Of a stretch of 64,000 nucleotides of DNA, positions 28,943 to 61,372 are shown piece by piece. The notes under the pieces were generated by a model that was not told the origin of the DNA, did not search any database, and was given only the letters and a program-made list of their open reading frames with translations. Position numbers and translations under genes: made by a program. The stretch is from Fabrea salina (lineage: Eukaryota > Ciliophora > Heterotrichea > Heterotrichida > Fabreidae). Positions within the stretch are counted from its first letter, which is position 1, and each line of letters begins with the position of its first letter. The stretch covers positions 1 through 64,000 of the forward strand of contig JALIHJ010000038.1 of NCBI GenBank assembly GCA_022984795.1. Reading direction: 5' to 3'.

Positions 28943-31900
28943 ATGAAAATTAGCCCTAATCAAGATTTTAACTCAGTTGCTACTGGAGAAGACCAGCTCC
29001 TGGAAGACCTTGACCAAGTACTTAAGAACTTAGAGCCTTGTAAAGTTTTGAGAGCTCATACAAAGGAAGTTACTTGTTTAAAAGTTGCGGGAAACTACCT
29101 GGCTTCAGGGTCACAAGACAGCACTGTGAGGCTTTGGAACCCAGACATCAAGCAAGAAGTGGGTGTTTTAAGAGGCCACATTGAAAGTGTGGAGTGCTTA
29201 GAAGTTATTGAAGGGTATTTAGCTTCGGGGTCGGAAGACTGCACTGTGAGGCTTTGGAACGTGCAAACCAAAACTCAAGAAGCAGTGTTGAGGGGGCACA
29301 GCGACAGTGTTATGTGCTTGAAAGCTGTTGGGGAGTACTTAGCTTCAGGGTCTGACGACAGCACTGTGAGACTATGGAGCATGCAAACTAAAACCCAAGA
29401 GGCCGTTTTGGAAGGGCACACAGCTCCTGTTGTTTGCTTAAAAGTTGTGAAGGAGTACCTAGCGTCTGGATCGAGAGATGGCACTGTGAGACTCTGGAGC
29501 ACAGAAAACAAAACCCAAGAAGCAGTGCTGGAAGGCCACAGTAACGAAATTACTTGTTTGAAAGTTGTAAGGCAGTACCTAGCTTCAGGGTCTAGAGATG
29601 GCACTATAAGACTCTGGAACATCGAAAGAAAAACCCAAGAACTAGTGCTGGAGGGCCACGAAGGCATAGTCTGGTGTCTAGGAGTTGTAAGTGGGTACCT
29701 GGCATCAGGGTCTGTAGACCGCACTGTGAGGCTTTGGGACTTGGAGACTGAAGAAGAAGTTGTTCTTAAAGGACACACCAGTTACGTTTGGTGCTTGAAA
29801 GCAGCAGGAGAATACCTAGTTTCGGGTTCCTGGGACTACACTGTTAGGCTCTGGAATGTAGAAACCAAGGAACAGTTGGCTGTTTTTGAAGGGCACCTTG
29901 GAGACATAAACTGCTTAAAGGAAGTTGGGGACTGCTTGGTTTCGGGGTCTGGAGATGGCACTTTGAGGTTCTGGAAACTTCACACTAAGACTGAAGAAGT
30001 TGTGTTGGACGGGCACTTAGATACTGTTAACTGTTTGAAAGCTGTAGGGCAGTTTCTGGCTTCAGGTTCTGCAGATAGCACTATAAGAGTATGGAACTTG
30101 CAAACGAAAACTGAACAAACTGTTTTAAGGGGTCACATGGAGCCTGTTAGGTGTTTGGAAGTTGTTGGAGAGTATTTAGCTTCAGGGTCGCAGGACAGAA
30201 CTATAAGGCTTTGGGACATGCAAAGCAAAACGGGAGAATCCATAGCAGTAGCCCATGAGGTTACTTGCTTGCAAAGTGAAGAGGTTGTGCTTGAAGGCCA
30301 CACTGAAACTGTTACTTGCTTGAGAGTTGTGGGGGACTACTTGGCTTCAGGTTCTAGGGACGCCACTGTAAGACTTTGGAACTTGCACACTGAAACCCAA
30401 GAAGCTGTTTTAGTGGGCCATACTGAAGAAGTGTGGTGTCTAAAAGTAGTAGGAGACCATTTGGTTTCGGGGTCTGAAGACTGCACTATCAGACTCTGGA
30501 GTATAGTGACTAAGGAAGAACTTTGCGTTTTCGAAGGACACACAGGTCCTGTTTGGTGCTTAAAGCTCGTAGGGGGTTACTTAGCGTCAGGTTCTGTGGA
30601 CAAAACTATAAGGCTTTGGAACTTAGCAACAGGCGAAGAGGAAGCTGTTTTAGTTGGGCATGCGAGTCCTGTGAGGTGCTTAAAGGCTTTGGGGGACTAC
30701 TTAGTGTCGGGGTGCTTTGAAGGCAGTGTGAAGATTTGGAACTTAGAAACCACTCAAGAAACTACACTTAAGGGGCATCAAGAAAGCGTGACCTGTTTGG
30801 AAGTGGTGGAGGACTACTTGGCTTCAGGTTCCGGGGACGGCACAGTGAGGTTTTGGAGTCTCCACACTAAAGCGGAAGAGGCTATTTTTGAAGGCCACAA
30901 AGACCCTGTTTGGTGTTTGAAAGTAGTAGGTAACTACTTAGCTTTTGGGTCCTCAGATGGCACAGTGAGACTTACAAAGTTGTGCTACGACTACAGGTGC
31001 TCTCCAGGACCAGTGCACGGTATGCACCTTTTTAAGAGAATAACTGAGTCGAAAAGTTTTGAGTACAACAAAAACATGAACCACTTAGCAGTGATGCCTT
31101 ACGGAATTAACCTTCTGCACGCACTTGCTTACCAAGGAAAAGACAAGTTGTTGCAAAGGGCACTGCAAGAAGGCTGTTACTATTTAGAGTCTGCTGAAGG
31201 CAAAACTCCACTTACACTGTCGCTTGAAAGAGGGCACAAAAAATGCACTGAAGTTATTTTAAAGTACATTTCAGAGCTGCAAGACACTCAAAAGCAAGAA
31301 ATGATTTTTTCAATGATTTCAAAAGACCTTCCGAGGATTTTCCAAGAAGCCCAAGCAAGGTTTATTTGTGAAGCAACTACTTCAAGTGTCAAAAAGCCTC
31401 TTAGGATAAAGAACCTTCCCTGTTACACTACAAGTGAAGCTGCGTTTATAAACTACTCTGAAGAATCTGAATGCAAAGAAGTCAAAGTAGGTCGAAGTAA
31501 GTTTAGGTACAACTTTGTAGAAGGATCTGAGGACAGTTTGACTTTACTAAGGAGTCTTTTAGAGACTGAAAGTGAGTGCCTGCGATGTAACTTTGTGCAT
31601 GCTTTAGTTAGTCACAAGTGGAACAAGTTTAAAAAAGCTTTGTGGACTATAGCTTTGTTTAACCTGCTAAGTATAGTTTTTATAGTGGGAATAACTTTTT
31701 TCGAAAATAACTATGCAAAGCAAGTGCTTACTGGGTTTTTTTTGCTTAACAACCTTGTTTTAACAGCCTTTGAAGCACTTCAGCTTTGGCTGCTCAAAAA
31801 GAACTACTTTAAGTCAGTCAGCAACTGGTTCAGTCTTGCAAGACTGTTTCTAGGGTACGTTTGGGGAGTAGTTTCGATAGCTTTGGAGTTTGGAAACTTA

Positions 31901-32728
31901 AACTCAGGCGACCTACTGACACTTACTGCAAGTCTTTTGTTTTGGTTGGAAGGAGTTAATGCTTTTAAGGTGTTTGACTTAACTAGGCACTACGTTTGGC
32001 TAGTGCAGCAAGTTGTAAAGGACAGTGCTGGGTTTTTACTACTACTTGGATACTTTGTTTTGGCTTGCTGGGCATTGATGGGCACTACAGAAAACTTAGG
32101 CCCCTGGGAAGCCTTTAAGCTTGGCTATAGGTTGCTTTTAGGCGACCCAGGGGACTTTAACGAGGTTCAGTGGGTTTTGTTTACAGTGGGTTCTTTACTA
32201 GGCTTAATACTGCTACTTAACTTTTTGATTTCAGTAGTTTCTGAGTCCTTTGAAAAAGCAGCCTTCAAGAAAACCGAACTGGACACTTTAACTAAACTAG
32301 AACTGATTTTTAAGCTAGAAAACTGTCTTTTTAAAAACAGAAACAAAGAAAACCACCAGTACCTGTACTACGTAAAACCTTTGAAAGAGCAATGGGAAAG
32401 TAGCCTAAGGGAACTCCACAAACAAGTCCAAGCTGTCAAAAACAAAACAAATAAAAACCAAGGAAAAACCCAAAGTGAAATCCAAAAAGCAAGACAAGAA
32501 ACGCAAAAAGGCATCCAAAACATAGACTTGAAAGTTCAAAGCATTGAGGGAAAAGTCCAAGAAATCGACACTAAGTTCCTTGACATAGACTATAAGGTCC
32601 AAAGCATAAGTGAAAAAACCATGAGCATCGAAAACAAGTTCCAGGAGTTCCAAGACAAAGTCCAAAGTATGGACGAGAAACTTGAAGCTGTCCTAAAGTT
32701 CCTCAGTAAAAAAGTAACTAAAAAGTAA
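28943..32728 (+). CDS. WD40-ankyrin-TRP-like channel 1
   Basis: A 1261-aa fusion. Residues ~36-680 hold 16 WD40 repeats of about 40 aa plus one degenerate half repeat (near IAVAHEVTCLQS). A short ankyrin-like region lies at ~720-790 (INLLHALAYQGKDKLL, GKTPLTLSLERGH). From ~893 there are six TM helices; the pore loop is YRLLLGDPGDF (~1061) and S6 is GLILLLNFLISVVSESF, close to the TRP signature LLNLLIAIMS.TF. A tail of ~100 residues is a coiled coil with KVQSI/KVQEI heptads, likely for assembly. This predicts a membrane cation channel with a large cytosolic propeller array. A second copy lies at 58037. Its TAA touches the PARN ATG. Confidence 0.88.
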   Translation: MKISPNQDFNSVATGEDQLLEDLDQVLKNLEPCKVLRAHTKEVTCLKVAGNYLASGSQDSTVRLWNPDIKQEVGVLRGHIESVECLEVIEGYLASGSEDCTVRLWNVQTKTQEAVLRGHSDSVMCLKAVGEYLASGSDDSTVRLWSMQTKTQEAVLEGHTAPVVCLKVVKEYLASGSRDGTVRLWSTENKTQEAVLEGHSNEITCLKVVRQYLASGSRDGTIRLWNIERKTQELVLEGHEGIVWCLGVVSGYLASGSVDRTVRLWDLETEEEVVLKGHTSYVWCLKAAGEYLVSGSWDYTVRLWNVETKEQLAVFEGHLGDINCLKEVGDCLVSGSGDGTLRFWKLHTKTEEVVLDGHLDTVNCLKAVGQFLASGSADSTIRVWNLQTKTEQTVLRGHMEPVRCLEVVGEYLASGSQDRTIRLWDMQSKTGESIAVAHEVTCLQSEEVVLEGHTETVTCLRVVGDYLASGSRDATVRLWNLHTETQEAVLVGHTEEVWCLKVVGDHLVSGSEDCTIRLWSIVTKEELCVFEGHTGPVWCLKLVGGYLASGSVDKTIRLWNLATGEEEAVLVGHASPVRCLKALGDYLVSGCFEGSVKIWNLETTQETTLKGHQESVTCLEVVEDYLASGSGDGTVRFWSLHTKAEEAIFEGHKDPVWCLKVVGNYLAFGSSDGTVRLTKLCYDYRCSPGPVHGMHLFKRITESKSFEYNKNMNHLAVMPYGINLLHALAYQGKDKLLQRALQEGCYYLESAEGKTPLTLSLERGHKKCTEVILKYISELQDTQKQEMIFSMISKDLPRIFQEAQARFICEATTSSVKKPLRIKNLPCYTTSEAAFINYSEESECKEVKVGRSKFRYNFVEGSEDSLTLLRSLLETESECLRCNFVHALVSHKWNKFKKALWTIALFNLLSIVFIVGITFFENNYAKQVLTGFFLLNNLVLTAFEALQLWLLKKNYFKSVSNWFSLARLFLGYVWGVVSIALEFGNLNSGDLLTLTASLLFWLEGVNAFKVFDLTRHYVWLVQQVVKDSAGFLLLLGYFVLACWALMGTTENLGPWEAFKLGYRLLLGDPGDFNEVQWVLFTVGSLLGLILLLNFLISVVSESFEKAAFKKTELDTLTKLELIFKLENCLFKNRNKENHQYLYYVKPLKEQWESSLRELHKQVQAVKNKTNKNQGKTQSEIQKARQETQKGIQNIDLKVQSIEGKVQEIDTKFLDIDYKVQSISEKTMSIENKFQEFQDKVQSMDEKLEAVLKFLSKKVTKK

Positions 32729-34180
32729 ATGGAAGTAACCAGGTTTAACTACCCCCAACTATACTCCTTCGTCAAATCTACACTCCAGAAAGCACACTTT
32801 ATTTCCTTTGACTTGGAGTTCTCAGGACTGTACCTGCACCCCAACTTAAGAAACACATCTCTAGACTCAATGGAGCACAGGTACTTAAAGCTCCACACAA
32901 GCATTACTTCTTTCTGTCCACTGCAAATAGGACTCTGTGCATTTAACTTAATGGACTCAGGAGCAAAAGCGACTCCTTTTTCCTTTTACTTGTACCCCAG
33001 TTCCCCAGAGGTACTTGACCGCACATACAGTTTCCAGGCCTCTTCAATGAACTTCCTTTCCCAGCATGGATTTGACTTTAACAAAGCTATTGGAGAGGGG
33101 CTGGGGTTCCTTAACTCCAAGGAAAAACAGCTCCTCAAGGACAAAGAAGTCCAAGCTAAAAGGGAGTTCAACAGAGCTGGAGTCACAGACGAAATGAAAG
33201 CTTACCTGAACTGGGCACGTGATAAGGTGCTGGAGAAGCCTGGAGAAGAAGTTTTTTTGGACGGAGAGTACGTTAAAAGCAGTGTACTTTACTACACTAT
33301 CCGTGAACTTGAAAAGGAATTTGAGTTGATAGGCGAAGTCAAGAAAGAAGGAACCTTTAACTTAGGAATTGAACTTAAGCCTGGCAAAAGAGAACACACA
33401 ACAGAAGACATCAGGGGGTTTTCTGAAGTGATTGACATGATTCAAGGCAAGCCTTTAGTTGGACACAATATGCTCATGGACCTTATGCACCTGTACGACA
33501 AGTTCATGGAGCCACTGCCTCCTTCGCTTTATGAGTTTTTAAGCGGAATCAATTCGAAGTTTCCTGTAGTCTACGACACCAAACACATGATTCAGTCCTC
33601 TACTTACCTAAAGAACTTCTTTGACAAAGACTACGGAGTCATTGCTTTGGAAGAGTCTTTTAAAACTATACAGAAAGACACTGAAAGGTTCAAAAACTAC
33701 CCCATACATGTAGACAAAGCTATTTCCAACGAGCTTCCTCACGACGCAGCTTTTGACGCGTTCTCTACAGGAAGTTTGTTTTTGAGGTTACTGTCTTTAC
33801 TGGACACTGACTTCAAGAGCTCACACAAAAGTCTCAAGCACTTAAAGAACACAGTCCCGGTGGCTGGCAGAAAAATACCCTTGAAACTGGACTCCAAACC
33901 TCGTGAAGAAAACTACAAGGACATCTTTGTGATCACTCTAGGTGAGCACGTGACTCCTGAAAGTGTAAAAGCTGTTTTGGAACAAGAGTTTGGCTCAGTA
34001 GCCGTGTACAAAATCTTCTGGTCGAAAGACATATTTTACGTAATGCCTTCTTCTTTAGAGTCTAGGGAACTTATGAAGCAACTCAGTGGGAAAACCCAGT
34101 TTGAAGTAGAAAACACAGTAGGGGTTCTCAGAAGTTACCATGACTTCGTTAAGCAAGAAGAAACTTTATGGGGTAATTAA
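32729..34180 (+). CDS. PARN: Poly(A)-specific ribonuclease PARN-like
   Basis: A 483-aa DEDD-family deadenylase. The first acidic pair is in FISFDLEFSGL (~24), the third motif Asp in LVGHNMLMDLMHLYDKF (~245-260), and the fourth in LPHDAAFDAFSTG (~333-345). This order, with a long insert between the first two motifs that would hold the R3H-like region, is that of PARN, which trims poly(A) and snoRNA/telomerase RNA tails. The C-terminal ~100 residues may be the RRM-like cap-binding part (VFVITLGEHV-type start). The ATG directly follows the TAA of the channel gene. Confidence 0.9.
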   Translation: MEVTRFNYPQLYSFVKSTLQKAHFISFDLEFSGLYLHPNLRNTSLDSMEHRYLKLHTSITSFCPLQIGLCAFNLMDSGAKATPFSFYLYPSSPEVLDRTYSFQASSMNFLSQHGFDFNKAIGEGLGFLNSKEKQLLKDKEVQAKREFNRAGVTDEMKAYLNWARDKVLEKPGEEVFLDGEYVKSSVLYYTIRELEKEFELIGEVKKEGTFNLGIELKPGKREHTTEDIRGFSEVIDMIQGKPLVGHNMLMDLMHLYDKFMEPLPPSLYEFLSGINSKFPVVYDTKHMIQSSTYLKNFFDKDYGVIALEESFKTIQKDTERFKNYPIHVDKAISNELPHDAAFDAFSTGSLFLRLLSLLDTDFKSSHKSLKHLKNTVPVAGRKIPLKLDSKPREENYKDIFVITLGEHVTPESVKAVLEQEFGSVAVYKIFWSKDIFYVMPSSLESRELMKQLSGKTQFEVENTVGVLRSYHDFVKQEETLWGN

Positions 34181-34182
34181 TA

Positions 34183-34512
34183 ATGTTTACAGTGTGTCTC
34201 AAACAGCAGCAGTTGATGAACTCAACTCACCTTAGAGAAACCCTGAACTTAATATTCCAGGTCAGGGGTCAAACCAACCAAAACAAACTTCTTAAAGACT
34301 GGGAACTACTAGTTAAGCAATCCCAAAATGCAATGAAGAAACCTTACTTGCTCAGAGCGCAACTTCCAGAAATCATGACGTTCAAAAAACTAGTGATTGC
34401 TGAGCACTTTATTGAAGGCCCTTCTTACACAGAGACTCCACCTGAATTTGTAAGTTTTATTCAGCACGACAAGTTAAAAAGCTTATATTTGAAGTACGAG
34501 ATTTTAAGTTAA
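34183..34512 (+). CDS. Small protein, unknown
   Basis: A 109-aa protein two bases after the PARN stop. Helical and slightly basic, without a signal peptide, TM segment or Cys motif. The middle, LLRAQLPEIMTFKKL, looks like ordinary folded sequence. Start context TTAATAATG. The gene is framed on both sides by real genes in the same orientation with minimal spacing, which supports it being real. Confidence 0.6.
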   Translation: MFTVCLKQQQLMNSTHLRETLNLIFQVRGQTNQNKLLKDWELLVKQSQNAMKKPYLLRAQLPEIMTFKKLVIAEHFIEGPSYTETPPEFVSFIQHDKLKSLYLKYEILS

Positions 34513-34517
34513 TTATA

Positions 34518-35519
34518 ATGACTGAAAACCAATCTAAGTTGGAACTCATCAGAAGGGGTCCGATTATAGGCGGACTGATTCAAACTTGCATGCGTCTGGG
34601 AATTCCTGAGATGCTTGCAGACGGAGACAAGTCACTGGACGAATTAGCTACCCGCACTTTTTTGCACCCAAACCAGCTAGAAAGTTTGTTGCTAGGTTTG
34701 GAGTGCACAGGTTTTGTTAAGAGAAACAGAACTACTGACCTTTGGTCTAACACTAAAAACTCTTCTGACTTGCTAGAAGAACCTCTTCGTTCAAGAGCCC
34801 TTTACCGCACTCTTCCCGAAAACTACAAGTCACTTTCTAACTTTGTAGACTCAATGACTACTGAAAAGTCTGCTTCTGAGATATTCCACAGAAAGCCACT
34901 TTCCAAAGTCATGAGTCAGGAACAAGGAACCTTTGAAATCTTCCAAAACTATGTCAACGGGAACCTTGTTTCTAACTTAGACGACGCTTTAGGCGTTATG
35001 GACTTTACTGGGTCCAAAAAGATTCTGGAGATCGGAGGTGGCGACGGGTCGCTTACTATGCAGATTGCAAAAGAATGCAGACACGCAGACGTAGCGGTTT
35101 TGGAAATGCCTGAAAACGTCAAAGTGATCAAAGAAAGCATTTCCAAGCACAACATGCTGAACAAGATCCAAGTAATCCAGGGGAACTATAACTTAAAAGT
35201 ACCGCCTGACTTCGACACTCTTATTCTGAGGAACGTAATGCATGAGTTGTCTGACTTCCAAGCAGGAATAGTTTTGAAGAACTGCAGAGAAAGTTTAGAA
35301 GCAGGTGGAAAGATGTTTATTATAGAAGCTCTTTTAGACAGAAGCAGTCCTCACTACAAAGCTTTGCGTTTCCAAGACATTGAAATGATGACTCAAGTCA
35401 ATGGGAAAGAAAGAAGTGCTGAGCAGTTCGAAGAGTTACTTGGGTCTGCAGGGTTTACTTTGCTGAGTGTGACTCAGGCTTCTTCAAGGGACTACGTGTT
35501 GGTGGTAGAGGCTTTGTAA
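34518..35519 (+). CDS. O-methyltransferase, COMT/ASMT family
   Basis: A 333-aa class I SAM-dependent small-molecule O-methyltransferase. An N-terminal winged-helix dimerisation domain (SLDELATRTFLHPNQLESLL) precedes the catalytic domain. The SAM glycine motif ILEIGGGDGSL is near 172, VLEMPENV near 197, and RNVMHELSD (the region holding the catalytic His) near 240; GGKMFIIEALL follows. The subgroup includes plant phenylpropanoid, bacterial polyketide and animal hydroxyindole methyltransferases; the substrate cannot be told. A secondary-metabolite role is possible. Confidence 0.9.
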   Translation: MTENQSKLELIRRGPIIGGLIQTCMRLGIPEMLADGDKSLDELATRTFLHPNQLESLLLGLECTGFVKRNRTTDLWSNTKNSSDLLEEPLRSRALYRTLPENYKSLSNFVDSMTTEKSASEIFHRKPLSKVMSQEQGTFEIFQNYVNGNLVSNLDDALGVMDFTGSKKILEIGGGDGSLTMQIAKECRHADVAVLEMPENVKVIKESISKHNMLNKIQVIQGNYNLKVPPDFDTLILRNVMHELSDFQAGIVLKNCRESLEAGGKMFIIEALLDRSSPHYKALRFQDIEMMTQVNGKERSAEQFEELLGSAGFTLLSVTQASSRDYVLVVEAL

Positions 35520-35525
35520 ATAAAT

Positions 35526-35933
35526 ATGCAGGACTTAGGCATTATCCTTATATCTTGTATTTCAATTCCGCTGTCAACTATTATAAACTTGGTGCTGTTG
35601 TTTCCCTTTCCTAGGTTTTTAAAAGAACTCTGCAAAACCCAAGTGAAAATTAACCTTTACTCAGGGCCTTTTCTGTCGGTTCTGCTGTTTATGTTTTACA
35701 CGTACAACTTTGCTACCAGTGAGTATGATGCTACTGAAGGCGATACCCAAGCAATTCGTTACGAAGCACAGGCTAGGATTTGGAAACTAGAAAGGAACTT
35801 CCACATATCGCTTTTTAACTTAGCAAACTGGTTAGTAGTAGTAGGAACAATCAACTTGTTAAAAAGAAAAGAAGAGGTCGAAAAGCCCCCAGAAAGACAA
35901 CCTAGACCTAGACAACAAGATGCTGCTAACTAG
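35526..35933 (+). CDS. Bap31/Bap29-like ER membrane protein
   Basis: A 135-aa protein with three TM helices followed by a short polar Pro/Arg/Gln tail. The pattern is N-terminal TM, FPRFLKEL, second TM, a polar loop ending in KLERNFHISLFNLANWLVV, then a dibasic KRKEE. This follows the membrane domain of Bap31-type ER sorting factors (RNLYIAGFSLLL in human). The long coiled-coil tail of animal Bap31 is absent. Ends in TAG, convergent with the next gene after two bases. Confidence 0.7.
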   Translation: MQDLGIILISCISIPLSTIINLVLLFPFPRFLKELCKTQVKINLYSGPFLSVLLFMFYTYNFATSEYDATEGDTQAIRYEAQARIWKLERNFHISLFNLANWLVVVGTINLLKRKEEVEKPPERQPRPRQQDAAN

Positions 35934-35935
35934 AG

Positions 35936-36283
35936 TTACTTTATCTTCTTCTTAGCCAAAATGTAGTTGTGGACTTCGACTTCTTTAAGTATTTGCTTGT
36001 ATTCAGTTTGGTCTTCGTAAATGGACTTCCAAGAAAGCAGTTGCTGGAACCAAGCTGTGCTTTCTTTAGTTTCTCTGAGTGGCTCAAGTATGATTTTGTT
36101 AGTGCGTTCAGGTATTTGGACTTCACGGGCAGACACGAACTTTTGAAAGCGCTTGCTAGGCTTGAACTTAGGAACTCTAGTCAAGTTGAGTTTGGGGAAC
36201 TCAGGTTGGGTTTTAAGTTTCAAAGGAGGCAAAGAAGTAGACTTCCAGTTATTCACAGTAGTTTTTTCAAAGGTTTTGTTCAT
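35936..36283 (-). CDS. Small basic protein, unknown
   Basis: A 115-aa Lys/Pro-rich protein (LPPLKLKTQPEFPKLN) with a helical C-terminal half containing WFQQLLSWKSIYED. No family recognised. It starts in TTAATTACCAATG and is convergent with the Bap31-like gene with a two-base gap; it is divergent from the NDR kinase over 68 bp. A short axonemal or cortical protein would look like this, but that is a guess. Confidence 0.55.
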   Translation of the reverse strand: MNKTFEKTTVNNWKSTSLPPLKLKTQPEFPKLNLTRVPKFKPSKRFQKFVSAREVQIPERTNKIILEPLRETKESTAWFQQLLSWKSIYEDQTEYKQILKEVEVHNYILAKKKIK

Positions 36284-36351
36284 TGGTAATTAAAATGAGT
36301 TATTCTGTTGAACTTTAAATACTAAAGAAGTTTCGCTCTTCTATCATTTAA

Positions 36352-37800: not shown

Positions 37801-37830
37801 TTATCTAAATAAGTTCTGTAGTAAACTAAG

Positions 37831-38634: not shown

Positions 38635-38665
38635 ATTAACTAAAGTTAACCACATAATCATTAAA

Positions 38666-39328: not shown

Positions 39329-39348
39329 GCCTACTACATTTTTAATTA

Positions 39349-40053: not shown

Positions 40054-40068
40054 TTTATTAAGTGTACA

Positions 40069-41625
40069 TTAAGCTAAGGCAATGACTTGACAGTTCAAGC
40101 ACTTAAAAGAGCCCCTGCAAATAACTGGGTTGCCAAAGGTTTCGGAACAACTAGAAGTGCAGTTAAGCAAGTCGCTGTCAATAGTCAAAGCAGGACCTTC
40201 GCCACCGCCTCCGAAGATCAACAACTCTTTAGAAACGTAAACAAACATTTCGTTTAGGCCTTTGGGTTCGTAAACCTTTAACTCAGGTTCCAACTCAAAC
40301 ATGAAGCAGTCTACTCCTCCAAAATACCCTTTGTTCACGTGCAGAGCACAGTCCAAGAACACCCCTACTACTTCGTTTGACTCCGAGTAAATCTTAAGCA
40401 CCATTGGTGTGTTGGGTGGGAACCTTGCAGCCTTAGTTAAAAGCACAGACAAGGTCATTCCATGTTCTTGTGAGGTGTAAACTAACTTAGGAACCATTAT
40501 TTGGTACCTAGGTTGGAGTCTTCCCCAAAGCTTTTCTAGACCTAGTTCTTTTGCACCTGTTCCAGTTAAGTTGTTGTTAATTGACACCTGGACTTTTGTC
40601 CGGAAGCCATTAGAAACTAGTTGGTTCACGTCTTCGATTTGTCCACAGAACTGTTTGAGCTTAGCTTTTAAGTCAGTAACTATTTCATAAGGCAGTTCGT
40701 GCTGGATCATTTGGAAGATGCTGTGGATGATTCTGATCAAAGCTTTTTGGCCTTCGCTTAAAAAACAAAGCAGAATCCTGAGCAGTCCTGGGAGTTTGAT
40801 GTAACCTATTAAAAAGTTGTCAAACATGTCTTTGATGCAGTCCGTTAAATTAAGTTCCATTCCCTGAACTAAGTTTTTTAAGGAGGTAATGTCCCTCAGC
40901 AGCAAGTCTGACAAAGAATTAGCCATTGCTAAGTTTTCTTCTTCACTGAAGTTGAAGTGCAGTCGTTTGTAGTTCTGGTGCTCCTCTGAAAAGCTCAGCA
41001 ACCTAGTCATCACTGAGTACGTCTCGGCTTCGTTTAAGTATACCAAAAGCAAACTTGACACTGAAAGCACTTGTGGACAGTGCTTAACGAAGGGGTGAAA
41101 TTCACTCAAAACCCAAAGCACTCGTTTCCAAGCACAAATGCCTTCAGGCATTAAGTAGACGTCGTTCAAAAAACTTTCAGGGTTTTCTTTGTTTGAAAAA
41201 GTGGGAACTTTGCTGAAGCTGCTTGGCACTGAGTCTCCGAATATCTGTTTGAGAAGGGAGTTGTAGAGTTCTGGAGGGTTTTTGATCTGCAGGAGTTTAA
41301 GAATCACTGTTTTTGCGTACTGGTCTGGAACGCCTCTGCTTAAGGATTACGCCCTGATGTACTGCTTCCAGTTCTCTTTGAGTTGTGGTTGATACAGCTC
41401 ACTGGGGTGTTCTTCGTGGGTTTTTTTCAAGCTTTTTCTTTGTTTCTTCCAGTTTTTGGTGTATAGTTGTTGGTTGCGTGCATTTAAGTAGTCTGAACAC
41501 TGCAAGTTAAAAAGCATTGGGTCGCAGTAACCCTGCTTCACCCAAGTGTTGTTTTCTAGTGAAAATCTTTTGATTTGCTTTGAAGAAATGGAGCTGTTTG
41601 AGCTCTTTCCACAGTTCTGTCCCAT
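40069..41625 (-). CDS. TBC-like plus TLDc protein, two exons
   Basis: Exon 1 is 41625-41351 and exon 2 is 41335-40069, giving 513 aa. The start MGQNCGKSS is a typical N-myristoylation plus palmitoylation signal. A TBC-like helical domain begins across the splice site (WKQYIRAGVPDQYAKTV), though the catalytic Arg/Gln fingers are not evident. The C-terminal ~170 residues are a TLDc domain (LVYTSQEHGMTLSVLL, TPMVLKIYSESNEVVGVFLD, LLIFGGGGEGPALTID). The architecture matches TBC1D24-type proteins, which bind membranes and the V-ATPase; TLDc proteins regulate V1 assembly. V-ATPase C is in the same window. Confidence 0.88.
41336..41350 (-). other. 15-nt intron in the TBC/TLDc gene
   Basis: On the minus strand GTAATCCTTAAGCAG. 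It contains an in-frame TAA, so it must be removed. Splicing joins codon GC|A (Ala) and restores a continuous TBC domain start. The TTA at positions 8-10, giving an A at position 10, is shared with both CCDC93 introns. Confidence 0.92.
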
Positions 41626-41634
41626 TTATTATAG

Positions 41635-43431: not shown

Positions 43432-43464
43432 TATCCTGGGTTCCTTGAGTTCACTAAGTAAGCT

Positions 43465-44799: not shown

Positions 44800-44804
44800 A
44801 TTTA

Positions 44805-47837: not shown

Positions 47838-47865
47838 TTTAGAATTTCTGGAAGTTAATTGCAAG

Positions 47866-48915: not shown

Positions 48916-49008
48916 TTAAAAATAAGAAATCAATTCCTAACTTGATTTTTTGTGATTCGACTATATCGCTTAAAACGGCTTTTTAATATTCTAGAATGGT
49001 GTAATAAA

Positions 49009-49497: not shown

Positions 49498-49541
49498 TTA
49501 AACTGTCAAGTATTTAGATAACTAAGCAACTTTGCTAATAA

Positions 49542-50378: not shown

Positions 50379-50406
50379 GTTTAATGCATAATAAAATCAA
50401 CTTAGT

Positions 50407-51963: not shown

Positions 51964-51978
51964 TGTAAACTAATAAAT

Positions 51979-53701: not shown

Positions 53702-53717
53702 TCCTTAAAGACATGTG

Positions 53718-54521
53718 TTATTTAGGAGATACGAAATTCTGGAAACCTTGACTCGTCGAAAGAGAGCCTAAGAAAGCAGAATTTCCAAAGAAACCTAATG
53801 ACAAGTGCTGAGCTCTGTCATAAGTAGAAAAGTTCTCAAAGTCCCAAGAAGGACTGCTTTCTGAGAACTTAAAAAACTTGTTTTGTGTAGAGGCAACTGT
53901 GAAAGGAGATATGAACTTTGTAGGAGCCACAACGCCAGTTTCACTCAAAAACGAGGAACAAACCAGCGCCCTTCGGGAGTCCTTGGCTAGTTTAACAAGG
54001 ATCTCAGACCCTTCGTCTTCAGGCTCTTTGAGGATTTCCAACCTTCTGGATCTCCGAGGAGACTCAGGACGTTTGGCTTTGCCACAGGGCCGAATTATGG
54101 CGTGGGCGACTTCTGGGTTCTTTATCAGGGTCTGAATTGGCCCGTTGTACTGGAGGTGTTTAGGCTGTGTTTTGTTCAACTGACGAAGATTCCGTCGGAT
54201 GCTGCTATAAAAGTGGTTCTTGATGGCGTTATCGCTCCTGCCTTTCAAGTGCTTTGCGATTTCTGACCACCTGTTGCCGTAGATCTGTTGGTACTCGAAG
54301 AGTTTTTCCTCTTCAGAAGGAGTCCAGTCATCTTTGTTAATATCCGGAGAGAGGTGGTTATGCCAGCGTTCCCTGCACTGTTTTCCAGTTCTCCCCTTTA
54401 TACGGTACTGGTCTTTGAGTTTCTGTGCAATGATAGACCAATGCTTGTCGCCATAAAGCTGTACAAGCTCCTTAATGCAGTTGTCTTCCTCTGGAGTCCA
54501 GGCTCTCCTATGTTTTACCAT
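53718..54521 (-). CDS. Two-repeat Myb transcription factor
   Basis: A 267-aa protein with two Myb repeats at residues ~5-55 and ~62-108. The tryptophan triads are W-W-W in the first (RAWTPEEDN, HWSIIAQKL, RERWHNHL) and W-W-F in the second (DWTPSEEEKLF, RWSEIAKHL, KNHFYSSIRR). The recognition helices are those of c-Myb R2R3 (GKQCRERWHNHL, DNAIKNHFYS), which bind AACNG sites. The remaining ~150 residues are Ser/Pro-rich and presumably regulatory. c-Myb-type proteins control cell-cycle and ciliogenesis genes in other eukaryotes. The stop is 16 bp from the convergent CCDC93 stop. Confidence 0.94.
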   Translation of the reverse strand: MVKHRRAWTPEEDNCIKELVQLYGDKHWSIIAQKLKDQYRIKGRTGKQCRERWHNHLSPDINKDDWTPSEEEKLFEYQQIYGNRWSEIAKHLKGRSDNAIKNHFYSSIRRNLRQLNKTQPKHLQYNGPIQTLIKNPEVAHAIIRPCGKAKRPESPRRSRRLEILKEPEDEGSEILVKLAKDSRRALVCSSFLSETGVVAPTKFISPFTVASTQNKFFKFSESSPSWDFENFSTYDRAQHLSLGFFGNSAFLGSLSTSQGFQNFVSPK

Positions 54522-54523
54522 TA

Positions 54524-55387
54524 TTAAAATGTTCCTCGTTTTAAGTGTCTCGTCATCTTCCAGAAAACACTTGCCCAGGGGCTCCTCAAGGCTTTAGGGT
54601 CCAGCACGTTAAAGTTGTGTTTTTCTAGCCTATTGTAAAACTTTTCAGCTTCGACAAGTGGAAGGAAAACTAAGTTGGCGTGTTTGGGCAAAGTGTACTC
54701 TCGGGCTTTTTCTAGGTTCTTCTTGCCGTAAGTCGCTACTTCAAGCACTACATCGTAAAAGGACTCAGGCACTTTGTTGGTTTGGTTGGTTTCGTCTTCT
54801 ATAGTTACACTGAGGGGAAGTGAGTGCTTGATCAAGAGTTCTTCGGGCAAGTAGCACCTGCCTCTGTCTAAGTAGTACTTAGTCATCAGTAGCAAGTTGT
54901 AAATGCCCCAACTCCTCCCAGCAAATGTAGCAGCTTGGAACTCAGTTTCTTCGTACAAGTGAAACAACTCCAAGAGGATGTAAAAACTCATAGTGTAGTT
55001 GTTGTCAATGAACCAGTCTAGGTTCTCCCAGGTCTTAATGTCTGTTTCCTGGAGTCTCCCTCTTATCATTCTTTCGAAGTGGGACTTGCGCACTATGTGG
55101 TACTTCCTTAGTTCTTTTAAAGCAATACTTATAGGTTCCATTGCCGGAGTTCCGTCCCAAATGCCTTCTAGGTTCTCTAGCCACCAAGTTAGTTTGCCTG
55201 ACTTTAAAGTTGAGTTCTGCATTGACTCTCGAGTCTTCAGCATCTCTAAACGAAGTGCGTGTACAGCGTAGTAGTAAGGCCTGATCTCTGGAGGAAGGAA
55301 CCTTCCGTGGATGTAGTGACCTATGTCCTTTTTAGTGACTTCAGCTTCGCAGTGCTCGAGTGCCTTTACAGGTTCGTAAATACTCAT
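54524..55387 (-). CDS. NDUFAF6: NDUFAF6-like complex I assembly factor
   Basis: A 287-aa member of the squalene/phytoene synthase fold. The first Asp-rich catalytic motif is lost, and the sequence follows NDUFAF6, a mitochondrial inner-membrane factor for assembly of the ND1 module of complex I. Diagnostic parts are KDIGHYIHGRFLPPEIRPYYYAVHALRLEM (given in part), FAGRSWGIYNLLL, and the LEKAREYTLPKHANLVFLP region near the end. Two bases separate it from the Myb ATG. Confidence 0.85.
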   Translation of the reverse strand: MSIYEPVKALEHCEAEVTKKDIGHYIHGRFLPPEIRPYYYAVHALRLEMLKTRESMQNSTLKSGKLTWWLENLEGIWDGTPAMEPISIALKELRKYHIVRKSHFERMIRGRLQETDIKTWENLDWFIDNNYTMSFYILLELFHLYEETEFQAATFAGRSWGIYNLLLMTKYYLDRGRCYLPEELLIKHSLPLSVTIEDETNQTNKVPESFYDVVLEVATYGKKNLEKAREYTLPKHANLVFLPLVEAEKFYNRLEKHNFNVLDPKALRSPWASVFWKMTRHLKRGTF

Positions 55388-55398
55388 TTTTACTTACA

Positions 55399-55992
55399 CT
55401 ACTCCATATCTTCTTTAGAAACTTCAGCTTCGGAGGCCCTTCCTTCTTCAAAGAGCTCCTTCCCAGTCTTCCTTGCCCAAACTTCTTCGTAAGTAAGAGA
55501 GTTCACGCAGATTTGGTTCCTGCGCTTTTCGTCAAGTTCTCTACGAATTTCTTCTTGCTCAGCAAAGTAAGCTTCTCGCCAAGACGTGAAGGACTCGTAA
55601 GTCACAGGAGTGAAAGTGGAGTAGGTTTTTTTCTCTTCTTGGGGGACTGCTTCTTGTGTTTCTTCTTGGGAAGTTTGTTCATTCAGCCACTCTTTGATAG
55701 CGTCAATTATGTCAAAGATCATAGGCGACCCTATATCTTTTTCAATCACGTCGTTGATGTAAGGCTTGACTTCTTCTGCTTTTTCTGGTGAAAGACTGAA
55801 CAAGGGCTTAATTGAGTAGTTAGGGGGTTCGTTGGGGTATTCTTGCGTGTAGTAAACTGAAAGTCTAAGGCCTATTGGCTCCTCAGAGTCGGGCAGAACC
55901 TGTATGTCGAAGGCAGTGTCTGAGTGCTGTGTGAGAATGTCAGGGTATATGCTGTTTAAAGCCTCTATTTCGTCTGTTTGTTCTTCGTTCAT
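55399..55992 (-). CDS. RWD-domain protein, RWDD1/Gir2-like
   Basis: A 197-aa protein. The N-terminal RWD domain (~1-110) has the usual DEIEALNSIYPD and YPNEPPNYSI, the latter containing the family YPxxxP. The acidic linker is followed by TPVTYESFTSWREAYFAEQ and KTGKELFEEG, the C-terminal signature of RWDD1/Gir2. These are partners of the DRG GTPases, and Gir2 binds Gcn1 in translation control. Ends in TAG. Confidence 0.9.
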   Translation of the reverse strand: MNEEQTDEIEALNSIYPDILTQHSDTAFDIQVLPDSEEPIGLRLSVYYTQEYPNEPPNYSIKPLFSLSPEKAEEVKPYINDVIEKDIGSPMIFDIIDAIKEWLNEQTSQEETQEAVPQEEKKTYSTFTPVTYESFTSWREAYFAEQEEIRRELDEKRRNQICVNSLTYEEVWARKTGKELFEEGRASEAEVSKEDME

Positions 55993-56047
55993 TATTTACT
56001 TATTCCAAGGTTACTCAGTTAGTTACTTTAAAAGCCATTGAATTATA

Positions 56048-56941
56048 ATGATTTCGAGTTTGGTGGAACCGATACTTCAGAAGTGCCGAAAAGCTGAGTT
56101 CTACAGAACTAAAGACCAGATCTCGTTTGTTTTCAATACCCTGAGACTAGGCTTAGCAGCTTACCTTTTAGGAAGATGGCCTTGTTTCTACCCTACATTC
56201 AATATTGTGTCGGCACTTATATTTTTGCCGATTAGAATAGCCCACTACAGCTACATACGCTGGCACTACACCCTTATAGACTTTTGCTACTACGCTAACT
56301 ACATGGTCATTATCCACCAATACTTCTACCCGGAAAGTATTTTCCTTCATAACGTTTCGTTCGCATTTTCTTTCGGACCGATACTTATGGCAGTTTTAAT
56401 GCTCCAGAATGCAGTGGTGCCTCACTCCTTCGACAAGATAATCAGCAACTACACCCACATAGGGCCAGCTTTAAGCTTGATCGCAGTCCGGATTAACACA
56501 TGCCAAGACTACCCTATTCTGCCTGCATTTCCTTTTTGGGAATACATGGCTTACTCTACAGGGTGTTACTTACTTTGGGCTGTTCCTTTTTACTTCATTA
56601 CTTTTGTGCTTGCTTACGAAAGCAACATAAAGAACAATAATGTGACGCTTTACGGGTTTCTTATGGCTACGAGAAAGAACACCTTAAGTCATAGTTTTTG
56701 TGGAATGTTGGGTGAAAGGTTCAGGCCTTTAATGTTTATGCTTGAGCATTTTCTCTTTGCTATTGGAACCTTTCCTTTAACATATATTTTCATTTCAAAT
56801 GTTCACCTTTGTATAAGCTCTTTGGTATTGGCTTTGAGCTATGGTATTTGGAACGGGGCTACTTTTTACGTGAGTTACATGCCCAAGAAATACGAAAAGA
56901 ACTTACAAGCTATAGAGGACTATGGTAGTAAATTCAAATAA
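56048..56941 (+). CDS. GPC1: Glycerophosphocholine acyltransferase GPC1-like
   Basis: A 297-aa, eight-TM protein of the GPC1 (DUF2838) family, which acylates glycerophosphocholine to lysophosphatidylcholine in the ER. Matching stretches are KDQISFVFNTLRLGLAAYLLG, IRIAHYSYIRWHYTLIDFCYYANY, SFAFSFGPILMAVLMLQNAVVPHSFDKI and SNYTHIGPAL (each read in part). The polar, His-containing WHY and HSFDK segments inside TM stretches are characteristic. Confidence 0.85.
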   Translation: MISSLVEPILQKCRKAEFYRTKDQISFVFNTLRLGLAAYLLGRWPCFYPTFNIVSALIFLPIRIAHYSYIRWHYTLIDFCYYANYMVIIHQYFYPESIFLHNVSFAFSFGPILMAVLMLQNAVVPHSFDKIISNYTHIGPALSLIAVRINTCQDYPILPAFPFWEYMAYSTGCYLLWAVPFYFITFVLAYESNIKNNNVTLYGFLMATRKNTLSHSFCGMLGERFRPLMFMLEHFLFAIGTFPLTYIFISNVHLCISSLVLALSYGIWNGATFYVSYMPKKYEKNLQAIEDYGSKFK

Positions 56942-56977
56942 TATCAAAGTAAGCAATTAATCTTCGTCAAGCTAAAA

Positions 56978-57815
56978 ATGAAATATGGTATGGACTCTGA
57001 GCTCCTAGACCTCTCGGAAGATGAACCTAGATGGGACTCTGAGGAGTCCCTGTCTGGGGGACATGGCACGGAGGATGAAGACTCAACTCAAGAGTACATA
57101 TTTGACGACGATGAATCACACTACGACGATATACAACCTTTTGAGTCATCAGAGGAAAAACCGCTCGACGAAAGCAGCGAACTATCAGAAGATGACGAAC
57201 TCTACCTCGCTTATCAGATGCCCTGGAAAAGAACCAAGACTTCTTCCTGTACAAGGGGCCTACTACAAAATGGCGCGAAAATATGGGAGCCCTACGTCTT
57301 CACCCGGGGAAAGTTCGACAGAAGAAGAACTTTACTCAGATGACGACAGCTTCCAGTGGGACGAAGACTTAGACGAAATCTTTGACCCCAGCAAAGACCC
57401 ACTAGAAATGATAGCAGAAATAGTGGTTAAAATCCAAGAAAAGCGCGAAAACAAAAGAATGATGGAAAGACTGTTCGAGTCACCAATGATCAAGGACTTG
57501 CAGAAAATGGAACCTGAACTACCCGATGAAGAACTGGTCCTGATCCAGGAGAAAACAGAGCAACAAGAAAAGGGAAAAAAACTTGAAAACAAGCCAAAAA
57601 ACCAAAAAACAGCGAAAACTGAAGAAAGACTACCTGAAAACTTGAAGAAACAAAAAGAACCAAGACAACAACCGAGAAGAAAAATTCAGGAACTCACGCA
57701 AAAAGTAAGAAAGGAAACACTACTGCTCTGGATTAAAAGCAAGATCAAAAAACGACACAAAAACACGAGACAACAAGAAAAAGCACGAGAAAGAAAAAAG
57801 CAGCAAACACCCTAA
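56978..57815 (+). pseudogene. Acidic/basic repeat-encoded protein, two frames
   Basis: The frame opens at ATG 56978 with an acidic stretch (SELLDLSEDEPRWDSEESL, DDDESHYDD). After a shift of one base near 57200-57260 it continues with KYGSPTSSPGES, a second acidic block (STEEELYSDDDSFQWDED) and a very Lys/Gln/Glu-rich C-terminus ending at 57815. No GT...AG pair of 15 or 16 nt fits the shift. It is joined to a (TAAA)n-tailed 3' end shared with the subtelomeric repeats, and repeat copy A has the same acidic-to-basic order (TEEEKYSDDQWSEDSD, then AKYGREPG). This suggests a mobile-element protein, possibly nucleic-acid binding through its tail, not a host gene. Confidence 0.45.
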
Positions 57816-57904
57816 GAACGAAACACCCAACCGAAAGCGACGACCCACTAATTCAACTCAGAGGCCTAGGCGGCTTGTACCAGCTTTAATAAATAAATAA
57901 ATAT
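57816..57904 (+). mobile_element. (TAAA)n-tailed repeat, copy C 3' end
   Basis: The stretch GGCCTAGGCGGCTTGTACCA then GCTTTAATAAATAAATAAAT closes the repeat copy that carries the acidic/basic frame. It matches copy D at 2 kb almost exactly and copies A and B more loosely (GGCTTGGTAAC). It is about 56 kb from the telomere, so the family is not confined to the subtelomere. The next 130 bp up to the channel gene hold nothing I recognise. Confidence 0.6.
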
Positions 57905-58036
57905 TAAAGGAAGCCTTCTAAGTTTCTGGGTTAAAAAGTTGGTCCCTTGGTTTTGACCGGGATTTCAGAATGGTTCGCATTCTTATTGTAAAGGATTTCA
58001 CGTGAAAAAAAACTCATCCGCTAACCGCGATAATAA

Positions 58037-61000
58037 ATGGTTGAAAAAGAAAGCGCACTTCTAGCAGAATATTCCCTTGCAAATGACCACAAAGAACAAA
58101 TGATTGAAGAATTAAACCAAATAGTAAAGAACCTACAACTTTCGGTCGTCATAAAAAAGCACACTGATGTCGTAACTGCTCTAGCAACAATTAAAGGGTA
58201 CTTGATATCCGGAGCTGCTGACAATACCCTCAAGATATGGGACACTGAGTCCTTACAAGAAATAGCTACTCTTGAGGGGCACACTGGGGCCGTTCTTTCT
58301 TTAGCTGAATTCAATGGTTGGATAGCCTCTGGTTCATATGACAATTCAATCATTCTGTGGGATTGTGAAACAGGAGAGAAAATAGACGTTTTTGAAGGCC
58401 ATACGGGCGCAGTAGAGTCCTTGGTCATTATCAAAGGCTATTTAGCATCTGCTTCCTGGGACTATACAGTTGGACTATGGGATATTAACAGAAGGAAAGC
58501 GGTTTTTCTTGAAGGACACACCAACAGCGTCAATTGCTTAGCAGTGGCAAATGGCTATCTAGCATCCGGGTCTGACGATAAAACAATTAGACTGTGGGAC
58601 GTTGAAGCTCAGAAAAAAATAGCTATTCTCAAAGGTCACACTGACATCGTGGAGTCCCTAACAGTGACTGATGAGTACTTGGTATCGGGCTCCAAAGACA
58701 CCACAGTCAGACTGTGGAACATTGAAACGTACCAAGAAGTAGGCATTCTCGAAGGCAACCCTGGTTCCATTCGTGCCTTGATATGGTTAGATGGATACTT
58801 AGCTTGTGGGTCTACTGATAGCACAATCAGACTATGGGACATAGAAGCAATTAAAGAAGTAGCAGTTTTAGAAGGACACACCAACGGAGTGATTTCATTA
58901 ACAACGATAAACGGATACTTAGTTTCTGGATCCTGGGACAACGACATAAGGTTTTGGGAAATTCATAGTGGGAAAAAAGTAACAGTCTTCAGAGAAGATA
59001 GCGACTTCATAAGGTCTTTAACGGAAGTAGATGGAGTCTTGGTTGCTGGATTTGGAAACAAAATGAAGATATTGAACACCACTACTGGAAGATTTGAAGC
59101 CACGATTGAAGGACATACTGGGACCGTGCGTTCTCTAGCGCCACTCAAGGGATACTTAGCTTCTGGGTCTTTTGATAGTACCATTAGGATCTGGGATGTC
59201 GATAGGAGGGAGCAAATAGCTATTCTTGAAGGGCACAAAGGTGCTGTGACCTGCTTGGCAAGAGTGGGGAAATGGCTGGCGTCTGGGTCCAACGATGAAA
59301 CCATAATGATATGGGCTATGGATACAGGAAAGCAATTAGCTGTTTTCAAAAAGCACACCGAAAAGGTTAACTGCTTAACAGCAATTGGGGAGTACCTTGC
59401 ATCTGGGTCTGACGATAAAACAATCAGAGTATGGGATATTGAAGCAGAGGAGCAAGTAGCTGTTTTGGTAGGCCACACTGATGACGTTAATTGCCTGATC
59501 GAGATCGAAGGCTACTTGGTATCTGGCTCCGTAGACAAAACAATTAGAATATGGGAAGTAGAGACAAGACGGCAAGTACACATTCTTCGAGGGCATACCA
59601 GTGCTGTGACTTGCTTAGCGAGAGTTGGAAGTAACTTGGCATCTGGTTCTCAGGATAGCACCATCATGATATGGAACATTGCAGAAGAAAAGGAGGTGGC
59701 TGTTATCAAGGAACATTCAGACACTGTGTTCTGCTTAACAACAATTAGTGATTACTTAGTGTCTGGCTCCTGGGATAAAACAATTAGACTTACAAAACTT
59801 ACGTACGATTACAGGTACCTTCCTGGAGCTACTATTGGAATACATTCCCTTAAGACTTTGGCCACCAGAAGATCTGCTAATTACCACCCAATCATTAACG
59901 AAATAACAATAGCCTCTCAAAGAATCAACATCCTCCACATTCTCGCTTACCAAGGAAGAGACATAGTCCTTAGAGAGGCACTTGAGCATGGATGCCATTT
60001 TATAAAGTCCTCTGAAGGAAAGTCGCCTCTAACTATAGCTCTTGAGCAAGAAAATGAAAGGTGTGCCGAAGTAATACTTGAACATATAGGAGGCTTAAAA
60101 AACAAGGAAAGGCAGAAAGCTATGCTTATGAAAATCCACAGCGATCTTCCAAAAGTCATACGAACAAATTCAGTTTATACAGAAAAAGTTCTTAAAGCAG
60201 CTACTTCTAACTTCATAGATTCTATCAGAATAAATCAAGTACCCGTGTACACCAATACTCCAAATCCATTATTCGCAAGGCCGGAGTCTCATGCAGATTT
60301 CAAAGATGTTAGGATAGGCCATACCAAAATGGGATTCAACTTCTTAGGAGGTTCAGATAACAGCATAGACTTGATGAAGGCTCTTGAAAGCACTGAACGT
60401 TCAGAATGTCTGCGTAGTGACCTAGTTCAAACTTTGGTGGGTTATAAGTGGAATAGGTTTAAGTGGATCATCTGGTTGTTAGGGTTTTTGAAGTTGGCTA
60501 GCGTGGGACTCCTCATGGGAATTACTTTTTTTAGAAGCACTTCTAGTAAAGAAGTACTTATGTGGACCTTCTTGGGAATCAACCTTTTTTTTGCTTTTTT
60601 TGAATTGGTCCAAGTATTTTCTACTAAGCTTGAGTATATTTACTCGCTCAGAAATTACCTAGATGTTATAAGATTGGCTTTAGGCTTTATATTGGGAGTA
60701 CTGTCTTTGGTATCTGAATTTGACAACTTTAACTCAACTAACATTTTAACAATAACTACGAGTTTGCTTTTCTGGCTTGAAGGAATTGCTGCATTCGAAG
60801 TATTTAGCTCTACAAGGTCTTACGTGCTGCTGATTGAAGAAGTCATTAAGGACATAAGAGGATTTTTGTTGATACTAGTATACTTTGTGACTGCTTACTG
60901 TGCTTTGATCGGAACTACAACTAGCTCAGACTTTTCAGACACTTTTAAGCTATCCTATGATCTTCTACTGGGAGACTTCAGCAGTTCAGAACTCGATGAT

Positions 61001-61372
61001 GTGCAGTGGTTTGTGTTTGTGATTGGTTCAATAGTGAATTTAATTATTCTGCTGAACCTGCTGATCTCAATTATCTCTGACTCCTTTGACAGAATCAACG
61101 CTCAGCAAATGGAGTCAGAAACTAGAGTCAGGTTGGGACTGGTATTGGAGATAGAAAACACAATGTTTTGGAACAGAGACAAGGAAGAACTAACGTACCT
61201 TTCCTTCATAAACGAATACAGAAACGAAGAAGCTCAAGAAGAGTGGGAAAGTAGAATCAGTGAGCTGCAAAAAGACAACCAAGAAATCAAAAACAAGATT
61301 GAAGAGAACTCAAAAGAAATCAAAAAAGTCTCAGAAAAAATCGACAACCTACTGAGTACTTTAACTAACTAA
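58037..61372 (+). CDS. WD40-ankyrin-TRP-like channel 2
   Basis: A 1111-aa paralogue of the gene at 28943. Fourteen WD40 repeats (~39-585), the number for two seven-bladed propellers; repeats 6 and 8 are degenerate (LEGNPGSIRALI, FREDSDFIRSLT). Ankyrin-like repeats lie at ~630-690 (INILHILAYQGRD, GKSPLTIALEQEN). Six TM helices run from ~805; the pore loop is YDLLLGDFSSSEL (~973) and S6 LIILLNLLISIISDSFD, a clear TRP signature. The coiled-coil tail is shorter than in copy 1. Codon use is more varied than in the neighbours. The start is ATG 58037 (GATAATAAATG). Confidence 0.88.
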   Translation: MVEKESALLAEYSLANDHKEQMIEELNQIVKNLQLSVVIKKHTDVVTALATIKGYLISGAADNTLKIWDTESLQEIATLEGHTGAVLSLAEFNGWIASGSYDNSIILWDCETGEKIDVFEGHTGAVESLVIIKGYLASASWDYTVGLWDINRRKAVFLEGHTNSVNCLAVANGYLASGSDDKTIRLWDVEAQKKIAILKGHTDIVESLTVTDEYLVSGSKDTTVRLWNIETYQEVGILEGNPGSIRALIWLDGYLACGSTDSTIRLWDIEAIKEVAVLEGHTNGVISLTTINGYLVSGSWDNDIRFWEIHSGKKVTVFREDSDFIRSLTEVDGVLVAGFGNKMKILNTTTGRFEATIEGHTGTVRSLAPLKGYLASGSFDSTIRIWDVDRREQIAILEGHKGAVTCLARVGKWLASGSNDETIMIWAMDTGKQLAVFKKHTEKVNCLTAIGEYLASGSDDKTIRVWDIEAEEQVAVLVGHTDDVNCLIEIEGYLVSGSVDKTIRIWEVETRRQVHILRGHTSAVTCLARVGSNLASGSQDSTIMIWNIAEEKEVAVIKEHSDTVFCLTTISDYLVSGSWDKTIRLTKLTYDYRYLPGATIGIHSLKTLATRRSANYHPIINEITIASQRINILHILAYQGRDIVLREALEHGCHFIKSSEGKSPLTIALEQENERCAEVILEHIGGLKNKERQKAMLMKIHSDLPKVIRTNSVYTEKVLKAATSNFIDSIRINQVPVYTNTPNPLFARPESHADFKDVRIGHTKMGFNFLGGSDNSIDLMKALESTERSECLRSDLVQTLVGYKWNRFKWIIWLLGFLKLASVGLLMGITFFRSTSSKEVLMWTFLGINLFFAFFELVQVFSTKLEYIYSLRNYLDVIRLALGFILGVLSLVSEFDNFNSTNILTITTSLLFWLEGIAAFEVFSSTRSYVLLIEEVIKDIRGFLLILVYFVTAYCALIGTTTSSDFSDTFKLSYDLLLGDFSSSELDDVQWFVFVIGSIVNLIILLNLLISIISDSFDRINAQQMESETRVRLGLVLEIENTMFWNRDKEELTYLSFINEYRNEEAQEEWESRISELQKDNQEIKNKIEENSKEIKKVSEKIDNLLSTLTN

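Follow-up and report, generated by a model that had tools for sequence, protein, structure and literature searches.

The window analysed here—the first 64,000 nucleotides of contig JALIHJ010000038.1 from the heterotrich ciliate Fabrea salina—contains two paralogous genes, each of which joins a long array of WD40 repeats to a six-helix domain resembling transient receptor potential (TRP) channels. The order of elements is the same in both: the WD40 array is followed by an ankyrin-like stretch, by the six-helix domain, whose pore and S6 are TRP-like and lead into a TRP-helix-like segment, and by a coiled-coil tail (Table 1). About 125 residues without a named domain lie between the ankyrin-like stretch and the six helices.

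Table 1. Positions in the window of the two putative channel genes and their elements.
Feature	Position	Strand	Basis
WD40–TRP-like channel gene 1 (P0001, 1261 residues, ends TAA)	28943..32728	+	single open reading frame; WD40 431 bits; transmembrane profile matches TRP channels
WD40 array of gene 1, 16 repeats of ~40 residues	29036..30976	+	repeat listing; period-120 tandem repeat at 29220-29737
Probable remnant of an extra WD40 repeat, ~15 residues, between repeats 10 and 11 of gene 1	30233..30280	+	insert relative to paralogue; spacing 55, not 40, residues
Ankyrin-like stretch of gene 1	31085..31267	+	Ank_2 E 9e-4, below cut-off; ankyrin-type chains fill the best 60 of 245 PDB matches
Predicted six-helix channel domain S1-S6 of gene 1	31646..32230	+	hydropathy, S4 by alignment; helices in low-confidence model; PDB profile
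Putative selectivity filter LLLGD of gene 1	32132..32146	+	same in both paralogues, between S5 and S6
TRP-helix-like segment of gene 1	32255..32350	+	HMMER alignment with post-S6 segment of TRPV2
Coiled-coil tail of gene 1	32387..32716	+	heptad score; 63-nt repeat; long helix, block pLDDT up to 79
WD40–TRP-like channel gene 2 (P0002, 1111 residues, ends TAA)	58037..61372	+	single open reading frame; WD40 317 bits
WD40 array of gene 2, 14 repeats, predicted two runs of 28 strands	58139..59800	+	best of five models; Foldseek top match 2ymu
Ankyrin-like stretch of gene 2	59918..60091	+	Ank_2 E 7e-5, below cut-off
Predicted six-helix channel domain S1-S6 of gene 2	60467..61066	+	six hydropathy peaks; PDB profile
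Putative selectivity filter LLLGD of gene 2	60962..60976	+	same in both paralogues, between S5 and S6
TRP-helix-like segment of gene 2	61091..61186	+	HMMER alignment with post-S6 segment of TRPV2
Short coiled-coil tail of gene 2	61223..61369	+	heptad score

Two intact fused reading frames

An earlier note on this DNA had described two copies that each run in one intact frame, and both were recovered with the same outer coordinates. At the base frequencies of the window, a stop-free run would occur by chance with a probability of about 5e-35 for 1261 codons and about 6e-31 for 1111 codons. A tblastn search of the 64-kb window with both C-terminal parts returned only these two genes at E ≤1e-3.

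The paralogues were compared over 1096 aligned codons, the shared WD40 part being residues 30-586 of gene 1. The WD40 parts are 44% identical and the transmembrane parts 46%; values are lower in the ankyrin-like linker (39%) and ahead of S1 (35%). Over these four segments the proportion of synonymous differences (pS) ranges from 0.66 to 0.78 and that of nonsynonymous differences (pN) from 0.34 to 0.40; for the WD40, linker and transmembrane segments the values are 0.73–0.78 versus 0.34–0.38. A 52-codon window across the junction shows 40% identity (pS 0.52, pN 0.43) and the TRP-helix segment 36% (pS 0.64, pN 0.36). Third bases at fourfold-degenerate sites are equal in 67 of 210 cases (32%), with 28% expected. 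The duplication is old and purifying selection maintains the fused frame, because identity stays near 40% to either side of the junction whereas synonymous sites approach saturation.

The earlier argument that two copies speak against a misjoin holds up well, as the junction is kept in diverged copies. The genome is very compact and its genes almost abut, which would favor a joining of separate genes through assembly or missed introns; against this, the same junction recurs in two copies 29 kb apart with synonymous sites near saturation, and both frames are free of stops, so that such an artefact is very improbable.

At its 3' end, the stop codon of gene 1 directly abuts the ATG of an open reading frame for a CAF1-family ribonuclease (32726-32731), with zero intergenic bases. 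A fusion of gene 1 to this neighbor via an 18-nt GT-AG stretch at 32725 was considered and rejected: the CAF1 match starts at residue 3 of the next reading frame, and the stretch differs in length from the 15-nt introns described below.

WD40 arrays

With a gathering score of 27 bits, WD40 (PF00400) reaches 431 bits in gene 1 and 317 bits in gene 2. Gene 1 carries 16 full repeats plus the remnant and gene 2 carries 14, one of them degenerate, in agreement with the 14–16 repeats counted before. Gene 2 was modelled at full length with AlphaFold2 from a two-row alignment, yielding five models. In the best of these, the array is predicted as 56 strands, grouped as two runs of 28; block values of the predicted local distance difference test (pLDDT) are mostly 70–95 in the array and dip to 41 at residues 311–320, between the two runs. 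This predicted strand pattern is as expected for two seven-bladed propellers. Among the best 50 Foldseek matches of the model, the repetitive propeller 2ymu comes first (27% identity over 589 columns, TM-score 0.45 normalized by target, root-mean-square deviation 10.4), many tandem-propeller proteins follow, and the highest target-normalized TM-scores (0.71 and 0.68) belong to the designed eight-bladed Tako8.

Identity between repeat cores averages 58% in gene 1 and 44% in gene 2, and the maximum is 72%. The gene 2 identities are depressed by its degenerate repeat, which contains an internal gap and was also retained in the contact-position statistics below. Fourfold sites agree in 46% of 1071 comparisons between gene 1 repeats versus 29% expected, which, with an expectation pooled over amino acids, is only a hint of later turnover among them.

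Contact positions of the blades

Residues R1-2, R1, and D-1 on the WD40 top face are generally required for contacts and form hotspots, according to PMC3419727; in the 32-residue repeat core used here, the rule given there puts them at positions 7, 9, and 23. The summed entropy of these three positions is matched by only 7 of 4960 position triples in gene 1 and by 2 of 4960 in gene 2. For gene 1, pN and pS are both 0.68 at the contact positions and 0.22 and 0.70 elsewhere; for gene 2 they are 0.71 and 0.72 at the contact positions and 0.32 and 0.75 elsewhere. The ratio pN/pS is thus about 1 at the contact positions, compared with about 0.3 (gene 1) and 0.4 (gene 2) in the rest of the core. R1 is a tryptophan in 5 of the 16 gene 1 repeats. 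The contact positions belong to the most variable ones of an otherwise conserved scaffold, which fits a multivalent docking surface; pS is saturated, and the pattern cannot show positive selection. From this concentration of variation at known top-face contact positions we infer that the docking platform suggested in the earlier note is plausible. The other WD40 gene of the window was intended as a control, and the repeat pattern finds one repeat in it, too few for comparison.

Linker, tail, and channel domain

The ankyrin-like linker and the coiled-coil tail of the proposed architecture are present in both genes. The Ank_2 match spans about 60 residues and falls under the Pfam cut-off in either case (Table 1); the heptad score of each tail was attained by none of 2000 shuffles.

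Hydropathy yields six segments in gene 2 and five above threshold in the channel part of gene 1, where S4 was placed via the alignment with gene 2; one further gene 1 peak sits inside the WD40 array and is false. The pore loop lies between S5 and S6 in both proteins, and the motifs LLLGD, LLNFLIS, and LLNLLIS read exactly as first noted. By eye, the hydrophobic stretch of S4 bears no basic residue in either protein, i.e., no voltage-sensor arginine ladder.

For comparison with solved structures, a transmembrane profile (A4) and a pore-to-TRP-helix profile (A5) were built from the two paralogues and searched against the PDB. All 31 distinct sequences that A4 matches up to E 10 are TRP channels, mostly TRPV—including one named only "Inactive", which we take to be a TRPV. 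Its top matches are the TRP-like channel 6pw4 (E 5.7e-4) and then TRPV2 (E 1.4e-3). TRPV2 also leads the best 60 of 140 matches of A5 (E 1.2e-3), among which TRPC6 (E 0.042) and polycystin (E 0.17) occur as well. In both searches HMMER aligns S6 and the following segment with TRPV2, which places a TRP-helix-like segment after S6. A model of the gene 1 C-terminal part has a mean pLDDT of 44.6, with helices where S1–S6, the pore helix, and the TRP helix are expected. Among the best 50 of its 304 Foldseek matches, the first 26 rows are all TRPV1, TRPV2, or TRPV3, followed by TRPM3 and CatSper rows; 7 of the 304 matches have E ≤0.001. This model is consistent with a TRPV fold and no proof of it. 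Overall, the channel is likely, though not certainly, TRP-like and nearest to TRPV among solved structures. We write TRP-like rather than TRP because the Pfam family Ion_trans stays below its cut-off.

Proposed function

We regard it as fairly likely, and as the best explanation of the data, that both genes encode divergent TRPV-like cation channels whose ankyrin domain has largely given way to a WD40 docking platform. With 14 or 16 blades, each array probably forms two or more propellers. Four subunits would form a cation pore, whose LLGD filter—acidic residue included—would pass Ca2+ and other cations, and the coiled-coil tails would hold the tetramer together. The propellers might serve as a multivalent cytosolic platform that binds partner proteins with its top faces, and binding or pull on this platform might be relayed via the ankyrin-like linker and the TRP helix to the gate. 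As a first guess, the partner would belong to the cytoskeleton or the cilia. More tentatively, the two genes may stand for a separate heterotrich TRP subfamily, in which propellers replace the ankyrin spring and the at least eight propellers of a tetramer are displayed as a ring for recognition or tethering, with partner binding or force gating the channel directly.

If the channel conducts, the N-terminal module of TRP channels would be exchangeable for a quite different protein-binding scaffold, and the two genes would offer a convenient way to examine how TRP pores are gated by cytosolic domains. Mechanosensation and habituation have classically been studied in heterotrichs, and few channels of these cells are, to our knowledge, known at the molecular level.

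Several observations weigh against a TRPV-like channel with a propeller platform. While the six helices and pore motifs of the earlier note stand, its "TRP-type" pore finds no Pfam match above threshold and rests on the PDB profiles: Ion_trans (PF00520) scores 20.9 and 15.8 bits under a cut-off of 25, and on the trimmed domain the best E over the two proteins is 2.9e-5 (19.0 bits for gene 2); PKD_channel matches gene 2 only, with 20.5 bits versus a cut-off of 22.4. The A4 matches reach E ~1e-3 at best with a two-row profile, and their TRP entries are redundant, coming from a small number of independent proteins. With A5, voltage-gated sodium channels (E from 0.014) are matched as well, and so is a tape measure protein (E 0.078). 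Searched alone, the gene 1 C-terminal part finds only ankyrin-type chains in the best 60 of 245 PDB matches, and that of gene 2 finds 6pw4 (E 1.8e-4) amid mostly ankyrin rows in the best 60 of 97, with TRPV2 at 0.3. Structure prediction, which had been recommended as a check, gave good propellers in one of the five gene 2 models (mean pLDDT 59.6 versus 45.5–39.1 in the others) but a channel part mostly at pLDDT <50 in the models of both genes, and the Foldseek matches to TRPV have TM-scores of about 0.2 with root-mean-square deviations of 17–22 Å. Variable top-face positions, finally, may be usual for WD40 proteins.

The ankyrin chain of NOMPC is thought to pull on its gate. A force-gated tether, a special form of the best explanation, would work likewise: propellers anchored to microtubules or the cortex would pull on the gate. 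The WD40 blades sit suitably on a linker ahead of the channel, and 4 of the best 50 Foldseek matches of gene 2 are doublet-microtubule entries; yet among the same 50, tandem WD40 folds match many unrelated proteins, above all those of the small-subunit processome, and we consider this form rather unlikely. A somewhat lower probability is given to a recognition receptor, whose WD40 array would change rapidly and sense self, non-self, or prey molecules, as in fungal NLRs, with the channel as output through ion flux and depolarization. The pN/pS of about 1 at contact positions versus 0.3–0.4 elsewhere would suit such a sensor, as would the hint of turnover in the fourfold agreement of gene 1 repeats (46% versus 29%, with the pooled expectation), the differing repeat number of the two genes, and the remnant repeat. 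The repeat cores, however, are far less alike (means 58% and 44%, maximum 72%) than the 85% that PMC4986451 takes as the threshold for high internal conservation in fungal NLRs, and the near-saturated synonymous sites do not allow positive selection to be shown.

It is improbable that the pore has lost conduction or that the proteins serve another TRP channel as regulatory subunits. In LLGD, the first glycine of TRPV-type filters is missing, and the Pfam scores are sub-threshold; on the other hand, two old paralogues share the same filter and have largely kept S6.

Genome context of the window

The window starts at a chromosome end, with a heterotrich-type telomere array of CCCTAACA units at 13-197. 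PMC9942806 gives the same telomere unit for Blepharisma, together with introns mostly of 15 and 16 bp. A loose screen for introns of 13–19 nt gave 15 candidates in the window: three of 15 nt (53098 on the plus strand, 43468 and 41350 on the minus strand), all GTAA...AG, and 12 of 14, 17, or 18 nt that are probably mostly chance joins; none has 16 nt. Together, the telomere unit and the 15-nt introns fit an origin from a heterotrich ciliate. The G+C content is about 42%.

For stop codon usage, 36 of 42 open reading frames were taken; the six omitted comprise two that run antisense to the channel genes, three from the vicinity of the telomere, and one without a Pfam match. The 36 end in TAA (28), TAG (8), and TGA (0); in this genome TGA is perhaps avoided or, in rare cases, decoded as an amino acid. 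A ciliate code with TAA and TAG as glutamine was rejected, since 28/36 frames end in TAA and 8/36 in TAG, often with the next gene close behind. With TGA as tryptophan, both channel frames stay unchanged and five others become somewhat longer at the 5' side.

In the gene-poor subtelomeric region, a segment of about 190 bp at 1223-1412 recurs 1.9 kb away at 3157-3355 in pieces 85–97% identical. The minus strand of 3902-7812 contains broken stretches 26–43% identical to a large surface-type protein at 10071-14240, and is probably a decayed subtelomeric paralogue of it. The latter protein matches PA14 and TIG, falls just short of the cut-off for laminin-G, carries several transmembrane helices toward its C terminus, and weakly matches the TRP family PF06011. 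Single reading frames also combine a TLDc domain with a RabGAP-TBC match (40069-41307) and a Tpt1/KptA RNA 2'-phosphotransferase with an RNase T-type exonuclease domain (62763-63995).

Comparison with known systems

The earlier note knew of no channel family with an N-terminal WD40 array. The sole backing of this claim is a search of open-access papers, covered by title and abstract opening and including no eukaryotic protein or domain-architecture database, which gave no description of a WD40–TRP fusion; an annotated eukaryotic relative that no paper discusses may well exist. Neither WD40 nor ankyrin occurs in the passages covered of PMC7935092, a paper retrieved for TRP channels and Stentor. 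Two scans of viral contigs gave no relatives. A contig scan with the full-length alignment, whose patterns fell in the WD40 part, found 62 bacterial loci in GTDB that resemble the genes in repeat sequence, with up to 37% identity in the best segment. In 30 of these loci, none of 32 open reading frames with at least four WD motifs has three or more predicted transmembrane helices beside the array; the remaining 32 loci contain no frame with at least four WD motifs by the pattern used.

The sensors of fungal NLRs (HNWD) are similar in their conserved scaffold and variable contact positions. The Fabrea arrays differ in that their repeats are not >85% identical, and the part joined to the array is a channel here; a WD40 sensor of high internal conservation was rejected on this basis, with repeat means of 58% and 44% and a maximum of 72%. 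The repetitive propeller 2ymu, the top fold match of gene 2, has 577 residues and no channel, and its TM-score is low, so the propeller arrangement differs or is poorly predicted. The protist TRP channel 6pw4, which we take to be Chlamydomonas TRP1, has the lowest A4 E value, yet is aligned with this profile in two short stretches only.

TRPV channels carry six ankyrin repeats, and their filter ends in G-M-G-D. The Fabrea proteins differ from them in the WD40 blades placed in front, in the filter LLGD, and in a short ankyrin-like stretch—an Ank_2 match of about 60 residues below cut-off instead of six N-terminal repeats. Like TRPV2 and TRPV1 (PDB 6bwj, 8t0c), they have an ankyrin-like stretch ahead of the channel, and the order of the six helices, S6, and the TRP helix align by profile.

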